From: Lachnospiraceae bacterium
Lineage (GTDB): Bacteria; Bacillota; Clostridia; Lachnospirales; Lachnospiraceae
Reading direction: 5' to 3'
DNA: 63,467 nucleotides
NCBI GenBank assembly: GCA_017551165.1
Contig: JAFZMO010000050.1
Location: forward strand, 1 to 63,467
Shown here: in pieces, positions 49,847-58,703 of the stretch
Numbering within the stretch: the stretch's first letter is position 1
Layout of the letters: each line of letters begins with the position of its first letter
Made by a program: the position numbers and the translations under genes
Notes under the pieces: generated by a model
What the model was told of the DNA's origin: nothing
Seen by the model: the letters and a program-made list of their open reading frames with translations, nothing else
Database searches by the model: none

Positions 49847-50587
49847 TCAGTCGACGAGCTCGTATCGCTCGACCTCGGAGGCCTCGTCGATCTCGATCCC
49901 CTCGGAGTAGGAGATGTAGCCGATCTTGCAGCCGGGACCGATCTTGACGATGCGGCCCATGACCGAAGCAGCGGTCACATTTTCCAAATAGATCTCGTCA
50001 CCCTCGATGGTGTTGTTGACGCGGAACTTGTGGCCGCTTCCATCGCGCCCGAACAGGCGGGAGAAGAAACCTACCGGTCCGTCGGCATGACGCTCGACGG
50101 TAATCTTGCTGCCGCCGATGCTGTCCGCGGTACAGTCACCGTTCATGCGGACGAGGATATTCTCCGCATTGATCAGGCCGCCGCTCTTGACGGCGCCGTC
50201 AATCTTGATCTCCTCGGCGGTGACGTCGCGGTCGGAGGAGATCAAACCGCTTATGTGAAGCTCACGGCAGCGGAGCGATGCTACGTGGAAGGAACCTCCC
50301 GCATGGCAGTTGTCGATTATCACGACGTCGCCGCCAACGTGGCAGCTTCCCGCGACATGGGCGGAATTTGCCTCGAGGTTTCCGTCAACGTGGCCGCTGC
50401 CGGAGACATGGAATTCGTTGCGGCAGGTGAGGCTGCCGCATACGTGGCCGGAACCGGCGGCATGGAACGAATCGCAAACGGCGTCCCCGTTCACGCGTCC
50501 GCTGCCGCTGATACGGATATCGCCGTTGTAGTCGGCGCCCGGAAGGCTGCCCGAGCCGGCGATGTTGTAGTTTTGCTTATCACTCAT
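49847..50587 (-). CDS. Bactofilin-like polymer-forming protein (YhbE/YhbF type)
   Basis: A 246-residue protein built from short glycine-rich turns repeated about every 18-20 residues: ADYNGDIRISGSGRVNGD, FHAAGSGHVCGSL, FHVSGSGHVDGNL, AHVAGSCHVGGDV. This is the beta-solenoid pattern of bactofilins and YhbE/YhbF proteins, which form filaments or coats. A second solenoid half follows residue 110, interrupted by a basic loop (FFSRLFGRDGSG). No membrane segment. It overlaps the upstream regulator gene by eight bases, so both are co-translated. In Bacillus, yhbD-yhbE-yhbF have the same order. Confidence 0.82.
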   Translation of the reverse strand: MSDKQNYNIAGSGSLPGADYNGDIRISGSGRVNGDAVCDSFHAAGSGHVCGSLTCRNEFHVSGSGHVDGNLEANSAHVAGSCHVGGDVVIIDNCHAGGSFHVASLRCRELHISGLISSDRDVTAEEIKIDGAVKSGGLINAENILVRMNGDCTADSIGGSKITVERHADGPVGFFSRLFGRDGSGHKFRVNNTIEGDEIYLENVTAASVMGRIVKIGPGCKIGYISYSEGIEIDEASEVERYELVD

Positions 50588-50987
50588 GATGAATTCCTCC
50601 CTGAATCAGATCGATTATGTGTTGTGTGACATCGTTGATGATCCCGTCCGCGCCGGTCACGAGGACGCGGCGGATGTCGTTCTGACGGAAAATGTGGTTG
50701 CCGTAATTCGTTTCCACGGCGATCGCACCGATATTGCGTTTCTCCCCTGTCAGCCTTGCGGCGAGCTCGTCGAGAAGAACGTCGTCCTTCGTCGAGAGTA
50801 TCAGCTCCACGCGTTCACAGATCAGGTCCTCCGGAAAGAAGGTTTCCTGCCCGGTCACGGTCGTTTTGCGCAGGAACCACTCGTCGGGGATCAACCCCTT
50901 GCGCTTCCAGCGGTAAAGCGAACCGTAGGAGATGTTGTAGCGTGCGAGCAGAGCCTTCTTGGAGATCAGGGACTGCTCATTGTCCAT
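50580..50987 (-). CDS. MerR-like DUF4004/YhbD-type regulator
   Basis: A 135-residue protein with an N-terminal winged-helix of MerR type: LISKKALLARYNISYGSLYRWKRKGLIPDEWF, split at about residues 7-38, then FFPEDLICERVELIL. It matches DUF4004 (YhbD) of Firmicutes. The C-terminal part (about 80-135) lacks ligand-binding cysteines. CGGAGG lies before the ATG. The promoter carries a 13-base palindrome in its spacer and two more copies downstream, which is where MerR-type proteins bind, so autoregulation is likely but inferred. Confidence 0.82.
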   Translation of the reverse strand: MDNEQSLISKKALLARYNISYGSLYRWKRKGLIPDEWFLRKTTVTGQETFFPEDLICERVELILSTKDDVLLDELAARLTGEKRNIGAIAVETNYGNHIFRQNDIRRVLVTGADGIINDVTQHIIDLIQGGIHHE

Positions 50988-51058
50988 AAAATACCTCCGT
51001 TGTAATTCGGAACACGGAACTTACGTCGGGACCGTTGCTCTGCAGTAGCGACAGCACC

Positions 51059-51111
51059 GTAACACTGTTCCGTAACACTGTTACACTCGCATTATAGCGT
51101 AACACTGTTAC
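51059..51111 (-). promoter_or_regulatory. Three GTAACACTGTTAC operator-like sites
   Basis: GTAACA-C-TGTTAC at 51099-51111 lies inside the promoter spacer; an identical copy is at 51072-51084, and a third with GTAACACTGTTCC at 51059-51071 abuts it. Site centres are 27 and 13 bases apart. Confidence 0.8.
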
Positions 51112-51119
51112 ACTGTCAA
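51091..51119 (-). promoter_or_regulatory. Promoter of the YhbD-bactofilin operon
   Basis: On the minus strand consensus TTGACA (51119-51114), 17-bp spacer, consensus TATAAT (51096-51091). A-tracts lie just upstream of the -35 box (51121-51155), like an UP element. Confidence 0.88.
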
Positions 51120-51230
51120 GAGCCTTTTTGAAAATTTTTCCGAGTTTCTTTTTTCTGCCATAAAAATGCTATGCAGCACCGTATCTAGGGTATACAATGA
51201 TCTGTGTGGGCATTGGGGAAGGAAGAGAAT

Positions 51231-52502
51231 ATGAGAACATTTTTCGAAAGAAAGAAACAGAGATTTCGAAGGCTCGCGGCAGCGGTGCTGTGCATCGCAA
51301 TGGCGGTCTCGCTGGCAGGCTGCGGCTCGGCGATGAAGGCGGCGGTCGCACTGGCGGAGCCGGCGAAGGGCGACGAATCTTCCGTAGAGAAGCGAAATGT
51401 CGACGACACGATCACGGAAGCGTATCGAAACTTCTCGATGGAGATGTTCCGGCGCGAACACGCGAAGGCCGGCAGTTCGATGACCGTCTCGCCGTTCTCC
51501 CTGATCTTTGCGCTCGGCATGGCGGCCAACGGGGCGTCCGGCACAGCGCTCGCGGAGATGGAGAGTGTGTTCGGGATGCCGCGAGACACCTTGAACGGCT
51601 ATCTGGCCACGCTCGTCGGGCTGTGGACGAAGGATCAGGGCTTGCAGATCGCTGATTCGGTCTGGCTCAACAACAAGGTTGCAGACAAGACGAAGAAGGC
51701 GTTTTTGGACATTTGCTCGAAGACGTATCGGGCGTCCGTGTTCCGGGCACCGTTCGATGAGACGACGATCACCGACGTCAACCGCTGGGTCAGCGACAAC
51801 ACGGGCGGCATGATCCCCGAGATGCTTCGGGAGCTGAAGGGCGACACGGATCTGCTGCTGATCAACGCCGTTTTGTTTGACAGGGACTGGAGCGATGAGT
51901 TCCGCCCGGAGGAGACGGAGAAAAATGCTCCGTTCTACGACGGGAACGGGAACAAGATCCGCGAGGTCGACCTCATGCATGAGGTGCAGGAGAACAGCTG
52001 GTACTACCAAGATGACCTGTGCACGGTCGCGGGCAAGCTGTACAAGGGCGGAGACTTCCGCTTCGTGGCGTTCCAGCCTCGGGAGGGTGTGAGCCTTGCG
52101 GACATGGTCGCGGCGATGAACGCGGACTATCTGAAGACCGCGCTTGACTATGGGAACCGGCGCAATGCGGAGGTGACGCTCGAGCTTCCGAAGTTCACAA
52201 CGGATTACCGGTGTGATTTAAACGAAGTGTTGCAGGATATGGGGATCCGGGAAGCGTTCTACGGCGGCCTGACCGAGATCACGGAGAAAACGGAGTTACG
52301 GATCGACGACGTGATGCAGCAGGTGCGCGTCGAGATGGATGAGAAGGGGACCCGCGCTGCGGCCACAACGGTCGTCGCGGTCACGGAGGCTGCGCTGCCG
52401 ATGGAGACGGAGAAGATCACGGTCCGCCTCGACCGGCCGTTTGTGTACATGATCGTCGCGGGCGCCAACGACATTCCGATCTTCATCGGAACGTATGAGT
52501 GA
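51231..52502 (+). CDS. Serpin lipoprotein 1
   Basis: A 423-residue serine protease inhibitor of the serpin family. Residues 1-25 form a lipoprotein signal with lipobox SLAGC. The serpin fold begins near 60 (AYRNFSMEMFRREHA), with MTVSPFSLIFALGMAANGASG and DSVWLNN. The hinge of the reactive loop is EKGTRAAATTVVAVTEA, with the small residues needed for loop insertion, so it should be inhibitory. Counting from the hinge places P1-P1' near Ala-Ala, which suits elastase-like targets. The family ending DRPFVYMIV...IFIGTYE is intact. First of three tandem paralogues; divergent from the yhbD operon, across whose operators its promoter may lie (TATACAAT at 51191). Confidence 0.9.
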   Translation: MRTFFERKKQRFRRLAAAVLCIAMAVSLAGCGSAMKAAVALAEPAKGDESSVEKRNVDDTITEAYRNFSMEMFRREHAKAGSSMTVSPFSLIFALGMAANGASGTALAEMESVFGMPRDTLNGYLATLVGLWTKDQGLQIADSVWLNNKVADKTKKAFLDICSKTYRASVFRAPFDETTITDVNRWVSDNTGGMIPEMLRELKGDTDLLLINAVLFDRDWSDEFRPEETEKNAPFYDGNGNKIREVDLMHEVQENSWYYQDDLCTVAGKLYKGGDFRFVAFQPREGVSLADMVAAMNADYLKTALDYGNRRNAEVTLELPKFTTDYRCDLNEVLQDMGIREAFYGGLTEITEKTELRIDDVMQQVRVEMDEKGTRAAATTVVAVTEAALPMETEKITVRLDRPFVYMIVAGANDIPIFIGTYE

Positions 52503-52527
52503 CGGAATTTGAAAAGGGGATAATCGG

Positions 52528-54030
52528 ATGGGAGATGATACTATGAAGGAGTCAAAATGGAAAAAGTGGATCATCGGCACGGTGATCGCGCTGTTTGTGA
52601 TCGCGCTGATCCCGATCCGGCAGACCATCAAGGACGGCGGATCGGTGGGGTACTCTGCGCTTTTGTATGATTACATCGACTACCATGGAATGAATGGCGA
52701 AGGTGTGGAAAACGGAAGGTCGGTCGAGTATATCAAAGTCGGAAAAGAGCTGTACATCCTCGGGTATTTGGTGTACGAGAACACCCACATCGAGACGATC
52801 GACGGGCCGGACCTTTTGGAATCGGATGCGCAGACACCGGACGGTCAGCCGCAGACCCCCGATGACGACGGTCCGACGGAGAGCACGCTGTTGACGGGAA
52901 CTTCCGGCACGACGCCGCAGACGAGCGCGATGGATGAGAAGATGCGCGCGGCGTATGCGGACTTTGCGTACAAACTGTTCGCGATGTGTGCAAAGGAGGA
53001 TGACAACAGTTTGGTGTCACCATTTTCCGTATACACGGCGCTTGCGATGCTCGCCAACGGCGCGGAGGGCGAGACGGCGGAGCAGATCCGGGCGCTGCTC
53101 GGGTTGACCGAGAGCGAGCGCAACGCCTACATGGCGGCGTGGATCGCTGCGCTAACGGGGCAGAGCGATATCGCATTCACCTGCGCGGACTCGCTGTGGG
53201 TGCAGGATCGCTACCAGAAGAAGGTGAAGAAGACGTTCCTCGACGCCTGCAGTGACAGCTTTAAGGCAGAGGTGTTCGCGGCGGCGATGGACGACGGTAC
53301 GGTCAAGGACATCAACGCCTGGGTGGAGAAGCATACGAAGGGCATGATCAAGGAGATCTTTGAGCCCGGCGACATTGATTCCGACGTTCTGATGGTGCTC
53401 ATCAACGCCATCACGTTTGACGGCAAATGGGCGATCTCGTTCCCGACCGAAAGCGTCGAGCAGAACGCCTTGTTTAACGGCGAGGACGGAAAGCACAAGA
53501 TCGTCGAGATGATGCACGGCGATGCGGACTCCGTGTATTTGGAAAATGACTACGTCTACGGCTGTACCAAGGCATACACGGGCGGCAAATTCCGCTACGT
53601 GGCGCTCCTGCCGAAGGAGGGCATGAGTCTGGACGAGGCGATCGCATCCCTGAACGGAACGACGGTCGACGCACTGTTTGCCGGCGCGATCTACGGGGAT
53701 GAGGTCAGCATCGCGCTCCCGAAGTACGAATGTGCGTACAGTAAGGAGCTGAAGGATGCGCTTCGCGCGCTGGGAATGGAGGATGCGTTCACGGCGAGAG
53801 CCGATTTTTCGAACATGTTCCCGACGGAGCCGTCCTATGTGGACCGCGTGATCCACAAGACGTACATGAGCCTGGACAGCGCAGGCACCAAGGCAGCGGC
53901 GGTCACGGCCGTTACCAACAGGAAACTGTCCGCTGCGATCGGAAAACGGTCGATCCGGTTTGACCGGCCGTTCATCTACATGATCGTGGACGAGAACAAC
54001 CTTCCGTTGTTCATCGGAACCTACGAGTAA
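52528..54030 (+). CDS. Membrane-anchored serpin 2 with an extra N-terminal domain
   Basis: A 500-residue serpin with a different front end. Residues 12-30 (KKWIIGTVIALFVIALIPI) are a membrane anchor, followed by IKDGGSVGYSALLYDYIDYH and ELYILGYLVYENTHIE. This resembles a small KDGG-type membrane protein domain common in Firmicutes, with no known function. A Pro/Thr-rich linker (about 92-132) leads to the serpin domain (LVSPFSVYTALAMLANGAEG, ADSLWVQD, KWAISFP). The hinge is SAGTKAAAVTAVTNRK, with P1 near Lys-Leu and P1' Ser, so its target should differ from serpin 1. ATG 52528 (after AAGGGG) or 52543 may be used. Only 25 bases after serpin 1. Confidence 0.9.
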   Translation: MGDDTMKESKWKKWIIGTVIALFVIALIPIRQTIKDGGSVGYSALLYDYIDYHGMNGEGVENGRSVEYIKVGKELYILGYLVYENTHIETIDGPDLLESDAQTPDGQPQTPDDDGPTESTLLTGTSGTTPQTSAMDEKMRAAYADFAYKLFAMCAKEDDNSLVSPFSVYTALAMLANGAEGETAEQIRALLGLTESERNAYMAAWIAALTGQSDIAFTCADSLWVQDRYQKKVKKTFLDACSDSFKAEVFAAAMDDGTVKDINAWVEKHTKGMIKEIFEPGDIDSDVLMVLINAITFDGKWAISFPTESVEQNALFNGEDGKHKIVEMMHGDADSVYLENDYVYGCTKAYTGGKFRYVALLPKEGMSLDEAIASLNGTTVDALFAGAIYGDEVSIALPKYECAYSKELKDALRALGMEDAFTARADFSNMFPTEPSYVDRVIHKTYMSLDSAGTKAAAVTAVTNRKLSAAIGKRSIRFDRPFIYMIVDENNLPLFIGTYE

Positions 54031-54051
54031 GGGAGAAAGGAAGTAAAGACA

Positions 54052-55419
54052 ATGAGAAGAGCAACAATACGTAAAATGATCGCGCTTTTGTGCGCGTTGA
54101 TCCTGACCGTGAGCTGTATGGCCTGCGGCTCGAAGACGGAGAGCCGGGAGAACAAGTCGCAGCCCGGCAAGGAGACGGCGGACCCGACCAAGACGGCGGA
54201 TCCGACCAAAGCGGCGGACCCTACCAAGGCAGCGGACCCGACGGGCACGCCCGGCGGAAGCTCGACGGAACTGACCGCTTCGTCCGGTGCGCCGGCAGCG
54301 AAGAAGTCGATGGACGATGTGATGCGCGAGGCGTATGAGAAGTTCGCCTATGACCTGCTCAACAAAATGAAGCCCGGCGAAACACGCATGATCTCGCCGT
54401 TTTCCGTATACACGGCGCTCGCGATGCTGGCGAACGGCGCGGACGGGAACACCCTCACGCAGATCAACGACATGCTCGGGCTCACGAACGAAGAGCGCAA
54501 CGCCTACATGGCGGGGTGGATCGAGGAGCTGACCAGGGAAGTTGAGGACGGCGCCGCGTTCACGAACGCAGACTCCGTGTGGATCAAGGATGCGCTTGCG
54601 AACAACGTTCCTGCGGAGTTCCTTGCAACCTGCGCGAACTCCTACAAGGCAGCGGTGTTCAAGGCAGCGATGGACACGGGATCGATCGCCGACATCAACC
54701 GCTGGGTTGCCGTCAACACGAAGGACATGATCAAGAAGATCATCGACGATCTTCCGCAGAATTGCTCGATGGTATTGGTAAATGCGATCTCGCTGGAAGC
54801 CAAGTGGATGAATCCCTTTGAGACGGAGCAGATCCGCAAGGACTACGATTTTACGAGAGAGGACGGCACCGTCAAGAAGGTGGACATGATGATGGGCGAG
54901 GCCGACGGCAGATACCTCGAGAATGACCTCGCGACCGGCTTTGTGAAGAGCTACAAGGGCGGACAGTTCCAGTACATCGCACTTCTGCCGAAGGAGGGCG
55001 TGAGCGTGGAGCAGCTGGTGGCTTCCCTGAAGCCCGGCACCCTCGAGGAGCTGCGTGCGAACGCCAAGCACGGCGATGTGTACATCGGCATGCCGCGCTA
55101 CGAGGAGGAGTACAGCGTATCGCTTTCCGAGTCGCTGCAGGCGCTCGGCATGAAGGACGCGTTCGACCGCAACAACTCGAACTTCGACCGCATGATCACC
55201 GGCGTGGACGGCCCGACCTATATCACCGACGTGCTCCACAAGACGTACATCAGCGTGGACAACGAGGGCACGAGAGCGGCAGCCGTGACGGCGATCCTGG
55301 TTGCCACGGACGCCTGTGCGGAGCCTTCCCCTTCGTACCGCGTCGTGTTGGATCGTCCCTTCGTGTACATGATCACGGATTCCGAGGGACTTCCGATCTT
55401 CATCGGTACGTACGAGTAA
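54052..55419 (+). CDS. Serpin lipoprotein 3
   Basis: A 455-residue serpin. The N-terminus (RKMIALLCALILTVSCMACG) is a lipoprotein signal with Cys near 25. A linker with repeated ADPTK units (about 43-68) spaces the domain from the membrane. The serpin core has MISPFSVYTALAMLANGADG, ADSVWIKD and NAISLEAKWM. The hinge is NEGTRAAAVTAILVATDA, with P1 near Asp-Ala-Cys; that loop differs from both neighbours. Ending DRPFVYMIT...IFIGTYE. AAAGGAAG precedes the ATG. It lies 21 bases after serpin 2 and ends before a strong terminator, so the three form one operon. Confidence 0.92.
   Translation: MRRATIRKMIALLCALILTVSCMACGSKTESRENKSQPGKETADPTKTADPTKAADPTKAADPTGTPGGSSTELTASSGAPAAKKSMDDVMREAYEKFAYDLLNKMKPGETRMISPFSVYTALAMLANGADGNTLTQINDMLGLTNEERNAYMAGWIEELTREVEDGAAFTNADSVWIKDALANNVPAEFLATCANSYKAAVFKAAMDTGSIADINRWVAVNTKDMIKKIIDDLPQNCSMVLVNAISLEAKWMNPFETEQIRKDYDFTREDGTVKKVDMMMGEADGRYLENDLATGFVKSYKGGQFQYIALLPKEGVSVEQLVASLKPGTLEELRANAKHGDVYIGMPRYEEEYSVSLSESLQALGMKDAFDRNNSNFDRMITGVDGPTYITDVLHKTYISVDNEGTRAAAVTAILVATDACAEPSPSYRVVLDRPFVYMITDSEGLPIFIGTYE
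54176..54250 (+). repeat. In-frame ADPTK-coding repeat in serpin 3
   Basis: GCGGACCCGACCAAG-like 18-bp units recur about four times and encode the ADPTK(T/A) linker. Likely a length-variable spacer. Confidence 0.75.
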
Positions 55420-55503: not shown

Positions 55504-55571
55504 CTTGCAAAATCCGACGTTTTGTATTAACATAATGCTGTGAAATTATGCACTGGGGAGTGTGGTCCGGA

Positions 55572-56420
55572 ATGGATGACAAAAGACGGACAATCGAAGT
55601 GTTTCGGCGGATCGGCCTGCTGTGTCTGGCGGTGTTGTTCCTGACGGCGTGCAGCCGCGGGAAGAACGGGACGCAGACGGCGGTGAGCGCGACGCCGAGC
55701 GCGAGTGTGACGACGGCGCTGCCGGGCGACGAGGACGATACCGAGCCTGCGCTGCGGCCGGAGGCGCAGTCCGTGTACCAGCTGCAGAAGCCGGCGCAGG
55801 GAGAGCTGTGCGCGGAGATCGTCGTGGAGGGCTACGGCTCCATCTTCGTGCGGCTTTTCACCGATGACGCCCGCAAGGCGGTAGAGAACTTTAAGACGCT
55901 CGCGGAGAACGGCTCCTACGACAACATCCGGATCAACCGCGTGGTTGCGGATTACTTCTTCGAGGCCGGCGACAAGGAAGGCTACGGCATGAGCGGCAAG
56001 AGCATCTACGGCGGAGGATTTGCCGACGAGATCTCGGAGCGATTGCAGCCGATCCGGGGAGCACTGTGCATGGCCAATCTCGGCGAGGAGTCGACGAACA
56101 CGAACCAGTTCTTCTTCGTACAGACGAAGGCACCGATCGTGCGGGCCCTGAAGGATCCGCTCGACAACCGCTACCACATGACCGTGGAGGAGTACCTCAA
56201 GGAGGCGTACAACACGGACATCACGGCGGAGCAGCTGGCGCTGTATGAGACCTACGGCGGAGCGCCGTGGCTGTACGGGCACAACACCGTGTTCGGGCAG
56301 ATCTACGAGGGCTACGAGGTGATGGACGCGATCATGGAGGTGAAGGTGACGTCGAAGCTTCGGCCGAACCCGGCCATCACGATCTCGGGCATCCGCGTGT
56401 TCCACTACGGCGAGAAATAA
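55572..56420 (+). CDS. Cyclophilin-type peptidyl-prolyl isomerase lipoprotein
   Basis: A 282-residue exported protein-folding enzyme. A lipoprotein signal (LLCLAVLFLTAC, Cys near 27) is followed by a Thr/Ser linker and a cyclophilin domain: VRLFTDDARKAVENFKTLAENGSYDNIRINRVV, split near 95-128, GGGFADEISERL, GALCMANLGEESTNTNQFFFV, and FGQIYEGYEVMD. The catalytic Arg of the FHR motif appears as NRV, so activity may be altered. ATG 55572 has GGGGAG eleven bases upstream; ATG 55548 is an alternative. It follows the serpin operon, and could help fold exported proteins. Confidence 0.88.
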   Translation: MDDKRRTIEVFRRIGLLCLAVLFLTACSRGKNGTQTAVSATPSASVTTALPGDEDDTEPALRPEAQSVYQLQKPAQGELCAEIVVEGYGSIFVRLFTDDARKAVENFKTLAENGSYDNIRINRVVADYFFEAGDKEGYGMSGKSIYGGGFADEISERLQPIRGALCMANLGEESTNTNQFFFVQTKAPIVRALKDPLDNRYHMTVEEYLKEAYNTDITAEQLALYETYGGAPWLYGHNTVFGQIYEGYEVMDAIMEVKVTSKLRPNPAITISGIRVFHYGEK

Positions 56421-56526: not shown

Positions 56527-57201
56527 ATGGAAGAGATCACGGTATTGGTAGTCGACGACGAGGCGCGCATGCGCAAGCTGGTCTGCGACTTTTTGCAGAA
56601 GAAGGGATATCACTATGTCGAGGCGGAGGACGGCGAGGAGGCCGTCGAGCGCTTCTTTGAGAGAAAGGACATCGATCTGATCATCCTCGATGTCATGATG
56701 CCCAAGATGGACGGTTGGGCAGTGTGTAAGGAGATCCGGCAGTACTCGAAGGTGCCGATCATCATGCTCACGGCGCGCTCGGAGGAGCGCGATGAGCTGC
56801 TCGGGTTCAAGCTCGGCGTGGACGAGTACATCAGCAAGCCGTTCAGCCCGAAGATCCTGATGGCGCGCGTGGACGCGATCCTGCGTCGCACCGGCCAGGA
56901 GGACGAGACGCTCTCCGTCGGCGAGATCGTCATCGACAAGAAGGCGCATCTCGTGACGATCGACGGTGAGACAGTTGACCTGAGCGTCAAGGAGTTCGAG
57001 CTGCTGAGCTATTTCGTGGAGAACCGCGGCGTCGCGCTGTCCCGCGAGAAGATCCTCAACAACGTGTGGAATTACGACTATTACGGAGACGCCAGAACCA
57101 TCGACACGCACGTCAAGAAGCTGCGCAGCAAGATGGGGGCCAAGGGCGATTACATCAAGACCATCTGGGGCATGGGATACAAGTTCGAGCCCGAGGCTTG
57201 A
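56527..57201 (+). CDS. OmpR/PhoB-family response regulator
   Basis: A 224-residue two-component regulator. The receiver domain has acidic pocket VDDEAR, phospho-Asp in LIILDVMMP (near 55), Thr in MLTARS and Lys in ISKPFSP. The C-terminal winged helix (about 128-224) has VKEFELLSYFVENRGVALSR and DTHVKKLRSKMG. AGAGAGGTAA precedes the ATG. It is followed 17 bases on by its sensor kinase. Targets unknown. Confidence 0.94.
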   Translation: MEEITVLVVDDEARMRKLVCDFLQKKGYHYVEAEDGEEAVERFFERKDIDLIILDVMMPKMDGWAVCKEIRQYSKVPIIMLTARSEERDELLGFKLGVDEYISKPFSPKILMARVDAILRRTGQEDETLSVGEIVIDKKAHLVTIDGETVDLSVKEFELLSYFVENRGVALSREKILNNVWNYDYYGDARTIDTHVKKLRSKMGAKGDYIKTIWGMGYKFEPEA

Positions 57202-57218
57202 TCGCGGGGTAGGAGTGC

Positions 57219-58703
57219 ATGAAGGGTATTTCGTTTCGTTCGAAAATGATGATCGCGTTCGCGCTGCTGATCGCCGTCAGCCTCTTCGGCATGTGGCTGT
57301 TGTTCCGCGTGCTGATCGATGACCTGACGTTTGACCGGAAGATCCAGGAGATCGAGAAGTGCTACGAAGAGCTCAACGACATCATGAAGGACAAGGATAA
57401 GGTCGAGCGCGAGGAGAAGAACCAGATTACGGTCCGGATCGGACAGCAGTACAAGATCTTCATCTATGACGGCCTGACTAAGACGAACTACAACACGAGT
57501 ACGGACTCCTGGTATCTGGAACCGATGCTCCGGTACACGGGCTACAGCAAGAAAAACGAGGTGAAGGAGCTTCGAAAGAAGGCAAACTACACCGTTTATC
57601 AGAATATTGACGGCTCGACAAACCTGTCGAGCATCGACCTGTACGGATCGCTGAACAACGGCTTCACCGTCATGATCCGTGCGAGCTACATGCAGCTGGA
57701 GAGCGACAACCGCTACATCACGAACCGTCTGCTTGTCGTGGGCGGCATCGTGCTTCTGGTGGCGATGACCCTCTCGGTGATCATCAGCCGAACGGTTACC
57801 AAGCCGATCCGGCAGATGTCCGGCGTCGCGGAGCGCATGGCGGGACTCGATTTCGAGGCGCGCTGTGAGGAGAACCGCAACGATGAGATCGGCGTGCTGG
57901 CAGGCTCCCTGAACCGGCTGTCCGAGCGACTGCAGTCGACCATCGGTGAGCTGAAGAACGCCAACAGCGAGCTGCAGCGAGACCTCGAATACCGTGAACA
58001 GCTCGACGAGATGCGGTCGGATTTTATCGCGAACGTGTCGCATGAGCTGAAGACGCCGATCGCCCTGATCCAGGGCTACTCGGAGGGCCTTGCGGAAAAT
58101 ATCAACGACGACGTGGAGAGCCGCGAATACTACTGCAGCGTCATCTCGGACGAGGCGGACAAGATGAACCGCATGGTACAGAAGCTGCTGACACTGAACC
58201 AGCTGGAGTTCGGCGGCAACCAGGTGGAGTACTCCCGGTTTGACATCGTTGAACTGATCACGAACGTGCTCCACTCGACCGAGCTGCTGCGCACGCAGAA
58301 GGAGATCACCCTGCACTGGCATGAGACGGAGCCGGTGTTCGTGTGGGCGGATGAGTACATGATCAGCGAGGTCGTGACCAACTACGTGAACAACGCGATG
58401 AACCACGCGACGAAGACGAAGGAGATCGCGGTGTCGCTGGAGAAGACGGAGGATTCGATCCGCGTCAGTGTCTACAACACGGGCGAGCCGATCCCCGAGA
58501 GCGAGATCGACAAGATCTGGACGAAGTTCTACAAGGTGGACAAGGCGCGCAGCCGCGCTTACGGCGGCAGTGGCATCGGACTTTCCATCGTGAAGGCCGT
58601 CATGGATCGACACCACCGCAAATACGGCGTGGTAAACCATGAAAACGGCGTGGAGTTCTGGTTCGAGCTGGAACCCGCGGAAACGGAGAATACAGAAGTA
58701 TGA
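57219..58703 (+). CDS. Sensor histidine kinase
   Basis: A 494-residue membrane kinase, partner of the upstream regulator. Two membrane helices (about 11-31 and 168-187) frame an extracytoplasmic sensor of about 135 residues. A HAMP domain (TVTKPIRQMSGVAERMAGLDF), a coiled coil, then DHp with NVSHELKTPIALIQGYSEG and the ATPase domain: N box NYVNNAMNH, G1 VYNTGEPIP, F box KFYKVDKARS, G2 GGSGIGLSIV. Its arrangement resembles VanS/PhoR-type kinases, but the signal is unknown. It overlaps hisH by four bases (ATGA), which couples the two. Confidence 0.93.
   Translation: MKGISFRSKMMIAFALLIAVSLFGMWLLFRVLIDDLTFDRKIQEIEKCYEELNDIMKDKDKVEREEKNQITVRIGQQYKIFIYDGLTKTNYNTSTDSWYLEPMLRYTGYSKKNEVKELRKKANYTVYQNIDGSTNLSSIDLYGSLNNGFTVMIRASYMQLESDNRYITNRLLVVGGIVLLVAMTLSVIISRTVTKPIRQMSGVAERMAGLDFEARCEENRNDEIGVLAGSLNRLSERLQSTIGELKNANSELQRDLEYREQLDEMRSDFIANVSHELKTPIALIQGYSEGLAENINDDVESREYYCSVISDEADKMNRMVQKLLTLNQLEFGGNQVEYSRFDIVELITNVLHSTELLRTQKEITLHWHETEPVFVWADEYMISEVVTNYVNNAMNHATKTKEIAVSLEKTEDSIRVSVYNTGEPIPESEIDKIWTKFYKVDKARSRAYGGSGIGLSIVKAVMDRHHRKYGVVNHENGVEFWFELEPAETENTEV

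Follow-up and report, generated by a model that had tools for sequence, protein, structure and literature searches.

Why would a bacterium carry three serpins side by side, and what distinguishes one from the next? We examined this question in a Lachnospiraceae bacterium (GenBank assembly GCA_017551165.1), using positions 1 to 63,467 of contig JAFZMO010000050.1; this stretch is called the window below. Between positions 51231 and 55419 it encodes three adjacent serpins, named W1, W2, and W3 in gene order (Table 1). Comparison with related genomes leads us to propose, with a probability of roughly 0.6, that these genes form an inducible, surface-tethered protease shield under the control of an extracytoplasmic function (ECF) sigma factor, with three serpins that keep different reactive loops.

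The operon encodes three full-length serpins with predicted surface anchors

All three genes are open reading frames (ORFs) on the same strand with a full-length serpin domain, which covers positions 2 to 366 of the 370 in Pfam profile PF00079 (239 to 277 bits; cut-off, 27 bits). They are separated by 25 bp (or 40 bp, depending on the choice of the W2 start) and 21 bp, their products all end in FIGTYE, and W1 and W2 are 33% and 45% identical to W3, respectively. Each hinge combines Gly at P15, Thr at P14, and small residues from P12 to P10, the pattern of inhibitory serpins (GTRAAA, GTKAAA, and GTRAAA). The lipobox of W1 (LAGC, Cys31) is standard; that of W3 (CMAC, Cys25) is atypical but plausible. 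W2 shows a single N-terminal hydrophobic segment (residues 11 to 34), and its first 45 residues contain no Cys. These findings bear out the original prediction, made from the letters of the window, that three adjacent paralogues with a common tail and intact inhibitory hinges lie here, and they support its claim that two are outward-facing lipoproteins and one is anchored by a helix.

The N-terminal helix module of W2 (52528 to 52900) matched other ORFs of the genus in 14 of the 61 genomes searched, its own included, and no Pfam family above its cut-off. It was not found in the second-position serpins at other tandem loci of the genus, 7 of 9 of which read as lipoproteins, and the W2 anchor module is best regarded as a domain swap in the window's species. 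The genome itself (2.54 Mb in 160 contigs, 91% complete, 7.7% contamination) yielded four serpin matches: W1, W2, W3, and one on contig C91 that is described below.

Each position in the locus keeps its own loop signature

The nominal P1 residue was assigned by canonical count, 14 residues after the P15 Gly. On this count the scissile regions of the trio differ, as had been predicted, with P1-P1′ pairs of Ala-Ala, Leu-Ser, and Asp-Ala and a Cys at P2′ of the third. Across the genus, P1 at position 1 was Ala in five rows of the alignment, Ser in three, and Thr in one (n = 9); at position 2 it was Leu in five rows and Phe, Tyr, Met, Glu, and Thr in one each (n = 10); and at position 3 it was Ala in eight rows and Asp (the window), Thr, and Val in one each (n = 11). 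The P1 class equaled the majority class of its position in 26 of 30 rows, an agreement that was equaled in none of 20,000 shuffles and that is inflated by close relatives among the rows, which are not independent. Positions 1 and 3 have the same majority class, “small,” and P1 class alone therefore sets apart only position 2. In these alignments, positions 1 and 3 are told apart by the flanking residues: (i) at position 1 a Lys occupies P3 or P2 in all rows but one (8 of 9), W1 being the exception; (ii) position 2 has Lys or Arg at P3 in 10 of 10; and (iii) position 3 has Asp within P3 to P1 in 11 of 11. The expected difference between the loops thus stands for these signatures, which each position retains throughout the genus, but not for P1 class at positions 1 and 3. 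An Asp-specific bait in W3, which its nominal P1 might suggest, was set aside; the other 10 position-3 rows have Asp at P2 (4 rows) or P3 (6 rows).

Inside the three lineages, column identity was 91 to 94% in the hinge and 21 to 31% from P5 to P5′. Ten-column stretches of the core that were conserved no better than P5 to P5′ numbered 20 of 301 at position 1, 0 of 300 at position 2, and 5 of 296 at position 3; among serpins of the C91 type, 1 of 296 was as low or lower. We then calculated the proportions of nonsynonymous (pN) and synonymous (pS) differences, pooled over six orthologue pairs out of two genome pairs. These were 0.26 and 0.46 in the loop (ratio, 0.57), 0.12 and 0.40 in the core, and 0.04 and 0.43 in the hinge (ratio, 0.10). 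Faster evolution of the loops than of the core, a test named beforehand in the original prediction, is therefore seen (pN of 0.26 versus 0.12 at similar pS), and we estimate that amino acids in the loop change at about twice the core rate. In the pooled loop sites of these six pairs pN did not exceed pS; the ratio of 0.57 therefore gives no sign of positive selection.

The three positions are old lineages at a conserved locus

We extracted 87 serpin frames, the window's included, and aligned 83 of them, leaving out four fragments. In a quick maximum-likelihood tree that excluded the loop, position 1 formed one clade and position 2 another, whereas position 3 was paraphyletic, with the C91-type serpins nested inside, which makes the position-3 lineage the apparent source of the C91 type. 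A recent local duplication is rejected on the strength of this tree, and its topology marks the three positions as anciently diverged lineages, each with its own loop signature.

Genes neighboring the serpins were searched by tblastn against 20 genome stretches. A conserved order (DUF5688; divergent bactofilin and DUF4004; serpins; cyclophilin; response regulator; kinase) was found in nine: complete in six, lacking bactofilin and DUF4004 in genome G011, and without the upstream genes in G014 and G021, where the stretch ends. These neighbors were not detected in the other 11 stretches, one on a G016 contig that is too short and 10 from genus genomes that fall outside the subclade and have their serpins elsewhere. 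With the window and G016 included, the locus is present in 11 of the 22 genomes of the genus, with three serpins in eight and two in three.

Serpins as such are more widespread, occurring in 21 of these 22 genomes (the window's own included) and in 105 of 299 genomes sampled from the family, of which 69 had one match, 20 had two, and 16 had three or more (tallied by hand; any broken gene can count twice). The claim that tandem sets are rare is thus upheld in part: 69 of 105 genomes had a single match, but serpin pairs lay side by side in at least nine other genera of the sample.

A spacing-specific promoter motif marks a small putative regulon with its own sigma gene

An ECF-type promoter element ends 44 bp before W1. 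Its relaxed form, CATAAN{15,20}CGTATCT, matched once in the window (0.00 expected), and 10 of 11 genomes carry CATAA-N16-CGTAWC ahead of the locus, always with the same spacing even though spacers of 14 to 20 were allowed. Across the genus, the strict form CCATAA-N16-CGTAWCT had 36 matches in 10 of 22 genomes, compared with 5 for the reversed pattern; spacers of 14 to 15 gave 3 matches (reversed, 6) and spacers of 17 to 18 also gave 3 (reversed, 3). Two positions outside the strict pattern were biased as well (A in 34 of 36 matches; A or T in 34 of 36). We inspected 30 of the sites: nine precede an orthologous ECF sigma gene, nine a gene for a Cys-rich protein, six the serpin operon, three a family with an HTYYP motif, and three other genes or none.

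The window's genome holds three strict matches, at the serpin operon, at a sigma operon on contig C45, and at a Cys-rich/radical SAM operon on contig C17. The C45 product combines Sigma70 region 2 and region 4 in about 180 residues, as expected of an ECF sigma factor. Its orthologues (E ≤ 1e-30) occurred in exactly those 11 of the 22 genomes that carry the serpin locus, and the strict motif precedes the sigma gene in nine of them. Downstream lies the gene of a membrane partner, which overlapped the sigma gene in these nine genomes (by 11 nt in eight and 23 nt in one); each partner has one hydrophobic segment, four of the nine being cut by the locus end. This layout is that expected of an anti-sigma factor. 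The partner of the window's species had no Pfam or NCBIfam match, and no relevant NCBIfam name was obtained for the Cys-rich protein or the serpins either.

Three further observations concern this regulon. The partner (L135:17-898) has a conserved stretch before its helix and an outer part that diverges strongly between species, as for a receptor that faces a changing ligand. At L133:208-1482 (minus strand), a motif-preceded operon encodes a Cys-rich CKHKGECRGTCPKC protein and a radical SAM protein, the latter resembling glycyl-radical activases at a score below the curated cut-off. In three genomes (L158, L151, and L155), the serpin-type promoter precedes members of the HTYYP family, which have a hydrophobic N terminus.

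Proposed function and competing explanations

In the explanation we favor, three anchored inhibitory serpins outside the membrane would between them capture serine proteases that differ in specificity: elastase-like enzymes at position 1; chymotrypsin-like or, through the conserved basic P3, trypsin-like enzymes at position 2; and elastase- or Asp-directed targets at position 3. The C45 sigma factor would read the serpin promoter, its own sigma/partner operon, and the Cys-rich/radical SAM operon, and an envelope signal would presumably release it from the overlapping single-helix partner.

Several observations weigh against this explanation. The shared P1 class of positions 1 and 3 is one. Another is that the canonical P1 may differ from the bond used, because the siropins, serpins of Eubacterium siraeum, are cut at P3-P2 and P6-P5 and not at the nominal P1 (PMC5127057). 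G016 counts among the 11 genomes only by its placement in the tree, its flanks lying beyond the available sequence; G015 retains only the −10 half of the promoter; and neither G008 nor G014 has the strict motif ahead of its sigma gene. Three of the 30 inspected motif sites precede unrelated genes or none, the inspected sites make up 30 of the 36 matches (two of the remaining six are at known serpin loci), and orthologous sites are not independent of each other. Since the 11 genomes look like one subclade, the co-occurrence of sigma gene and locus may also reflect shared descent.

Finally, the serpins could be regulated by the nearby two-component system, with the ECF-like motif secondary or incidental. 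This arrangement has a precedent in the Bifidobacterium breve serpin, which is associated with a protease-inducible two-component system (PMC8012564), and in all nine relatives with checkable flanks the genes for response regulator and kinase keep their synteny with the serpins. The response regulator is, however, 83 to 93% identical between genomes, far above the serpins, and its kinase gene overlaps what we take to be hisH. Together these features suggest that the pair has another job. The promoter motif, moreover, is spacing specific, and the regulon that it defines includes its own sigma factor; we consider control by the two-component system improbable.

Two other explanations concern the role of the serpins. 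Under relaxed constraint, an ordinary expansion of paralogues would have duplicated one broad inhibitory activity whose loops drift freely. The loop pN/pS ratio of 0.57 is below 1, parts of the core are equally variable in lineages 1 and 3, and the majority P1 class at positions 1 and 3 is the same, all of which would fit; free drift is hard to square with flank signatures kept in 8 of 9, 10 of 10, and 11 of 11 rows at positions 1, 2, and 3 and with strongly constrained hinges, and we give this explanation little weight. Alternatively, the serpins could guard the cell's own secreted and surface proteins against its own or its neighbors' subtilisin-like proteases, not against host enzymes. A similar role has been suggested for Clostridium thermocellum serpins, the window's genome has one match to the S8 subtilases (a 1,238-residue frame), and PinA inhibits subtilisins (PMC8201313 and PMC12484212). 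Several conserved loop chemistries exceed what a single endogenous subtilase would call for, and ECF control suggests an external stress. Neither argument is decisive, and we regard the housekeeping role as unlikely but worth keeping in view beside the proposed ECF-controlled shield.

Other serpins of the genus appear to be coupled directly to sigma genes

The fourth serpin of the window's genome, on contig C91, overlaps an ECF sigma gene. It has one hydrophobic segment (residues 26 to 55) after an N-terminal tail that, given its likely orientation, would be cytoplasmic. Neither a Pfam search with its first 86 residues (E ≤ 10) nor an NCBIfam search with the entire protein (E ≤ 1) gave a family; with no known anti-sigma domain model matched, we only propose that it acts like an anti-sigma factor. 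Its nominal bait is trypsin-like (Phe-Lys-Gly), and C91-type serpins have Lys or Arg at P1 in 10 of 13 cases, four of these being near-identical copies.

The promoter motif of this unit, TGAGAC-N16-CGTCTAA, differs from that of the tandem serpins. It had 5 matches in the 22 genomes, each at a C91-type sigma-serpin operon (reversed, 2), and exactly one in the window's genome, at C91's own operon. The strict form is absent at three other sigma-associated genes of the C91 type (G006:C7, G011:C17, and G015:C24), and a looser form had no match in the window. A single sigma factor for all serpins was rejected on these grounds.

More broadly, an ECF sigma gene lies immediately upstream at 22 of 34 nontandem serpin loci tested in the genus; of the 12 loci without one, three are covered by at most 1.3 kb of upstream sequence. 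All 10 sigma genes from these loci that were run through Pfam were confirmed, as was C91's. The genus contains a second, distant clade of sigma-coupled serpins; with two separate clades, one of them within the position-3 lineage, the layout suggests at least two origins. Outside the genus, among 20 high-scoring family serpins picked by hand from 19 genomes, the overlapping layout was found once (L174) and a sigma gene about 0.75 kb further upstream twice (L181 and L184). One sigma-linked serpin gene is broken into two frames (G018:C7:26588-27519, L084).

These arrangements lead us to suggest, tentatively and at somewhat less than even odds, that sigma-coupled membrane serpins are suicide receptors for proteases, with the extracellular serpin as sensor. 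A protease that cuts the bait loop would be trapped, the rearrangement of the serpin would expose the stalk to regulated proteolysis, and the freed sigma factor would yield more sigma factor and more serpin. With the C91 motif found only at its own operon, the C91 unit would both detect and trap proteases by itself, next to the three-serpin shield.

Genes flanking the operon

Downstream of W3, no terminator-like site was listed on the plus strand before the cyclophilin-type gene, which is possibly cotranscribed with the serpins. On the upstream side (positions 50988 to 51150), the divergent DUF4004/bactofilin genes have a perfect TTGACA-17-TATAAT promoter, surrounded by several inverted repeats of the GTAACACTGTTAC type that are possibly operators of that gene pair. 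Control of the serpins by the repeats was rejected: G011, in which neither the bactofilin and DUF4004 genes nor the repeats were found, keeps the serpin promoter.

Table 1. Features of the serpin operon, its flanks, and the two sigma operons (window coordinates unless preceded by a locus number)
Feature	Coordinates	Strand	Basis or remark
Serpin 1 (W1), position-1 lineage, lipoprotein	51231..52502	+	Pfam PF00079 1.5e-70, 239 bits; lipobox; tree
Serpin 2 (W2), position-2 lineage, N-terminal membrane helix and module of about 100 residues	52528 (or 52543)..54030	+	Pfam 3.4e-82, 277 bits
Serpin 3 (W3), position-3 lineage, probable lipoprotein	54052..55419	+	Pfam 4.1e-76, 257 bits
W1 reactive loop, P15-P3′	52347..52400	+	Nominal P1-P1′ Ala-Ala
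W2 reactive loop, P15-P3′	53884..53937	+	Nominal P1-P1′ Leu-Ser, basic P3
W3 reactive loop, P15-P3′	55267..55320	+	Nominal P1-P1′ Asp-Ala, Cys at P2′
ECF-type promoter element CCATAA-N16-CGTATCT of the serpin operon	51158..51186	+	Sequence; motif counts
Divergent bactofilin and DUF4004 genes, conserved upstream boundary	49847..50987	−	Pfam; synteny
Cyclophilin-type prolyl isomerase, lipoprotein-like N terminus	55548..56420	+	Pfam PF00160 1.8e-27; synteny
Response regulator and sensor kinase, syntenic	56527..58703	+	Pfam; synteny
ECF sigma gene, contig C45	L135:888-1490	−	PF04542 4.4e-16, PF04545 1.1e-10
Membrane partner of C45 sigma	L135:17-898	−	Overlap with sigma gene; one hydrophobic segment
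C91 sigma ORF	L002:498-1178		Pfam-confirmed sigma; overlaps serpin ORF
C91 serpin ORF	L002:1162-2577		Overlaps sigma ORF; reads as tail, helix, serpin

Relation to known systems and significance

Serpins are known in both fold and mechanism; a three-serpin locus combined with a regulon, and serpins coupled to sigma genes, appear as a new variation on that theme. Siropins 1 and 2, a pair studied in a gut bacterium, inhibit human neutrophil elastase and proteinase 3; they differ in that the available text of PMC5127057, which contains neither "operon" nor "tandem," describes no shared operon or regulon and in that their cleavage sites were measured. The solved chains nearest to W3 belong to tengpin of Thermoanaerobacter tengcongensis (2vh4, also 2pee; E = 3e-67 to 4e-67), an inhibitor of neutrophil elastase (PMC8201313). 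Unlike the trio, tengpin appears to be a single serpin from a hot-spring organism, and the available text of PMC8201313 mentions no three-serpin set. The B. breve serpin offers a parallel in its regulation, since its transcription answers proteases through a dedicated adjacent regulator; that regulator is a two-component system, not an ECF sigma factor (PMC8012564).

For the proposed sensor, the nearest parallels are membrane anti-sigma factors whose extracellular domain binds the cue: RsiV, which governs sigma-V and binds the host enzyme lysozyme (PMC4183432), and the RsgI factors that sense through a carbohydrate-binding module (PMC12484212). In both, the sensor is a lysozyme-binding or carbohydrate-binding domain and not a serpin. 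No link between serpins and anti-sigma sensing appeared among the best-ranked literature matches (the best 8 to 25 of 94 to 406 papers per listing), a set outside which subscription papers lie; two papers contain both terms, and the available passages of both treat them separately.

Because the tandem locus combines conserved loop signatures with a promoter, a candidate sigma factor, and a small regulon, its role and inducer are directly testable. If sigma-coupled serpins do sense proteases, they would offer a ready-made design for a protease biosensor and would parallel RsiV and other receptors for host enzymes, except that here the receptor is itself an irreversible inhibitor.

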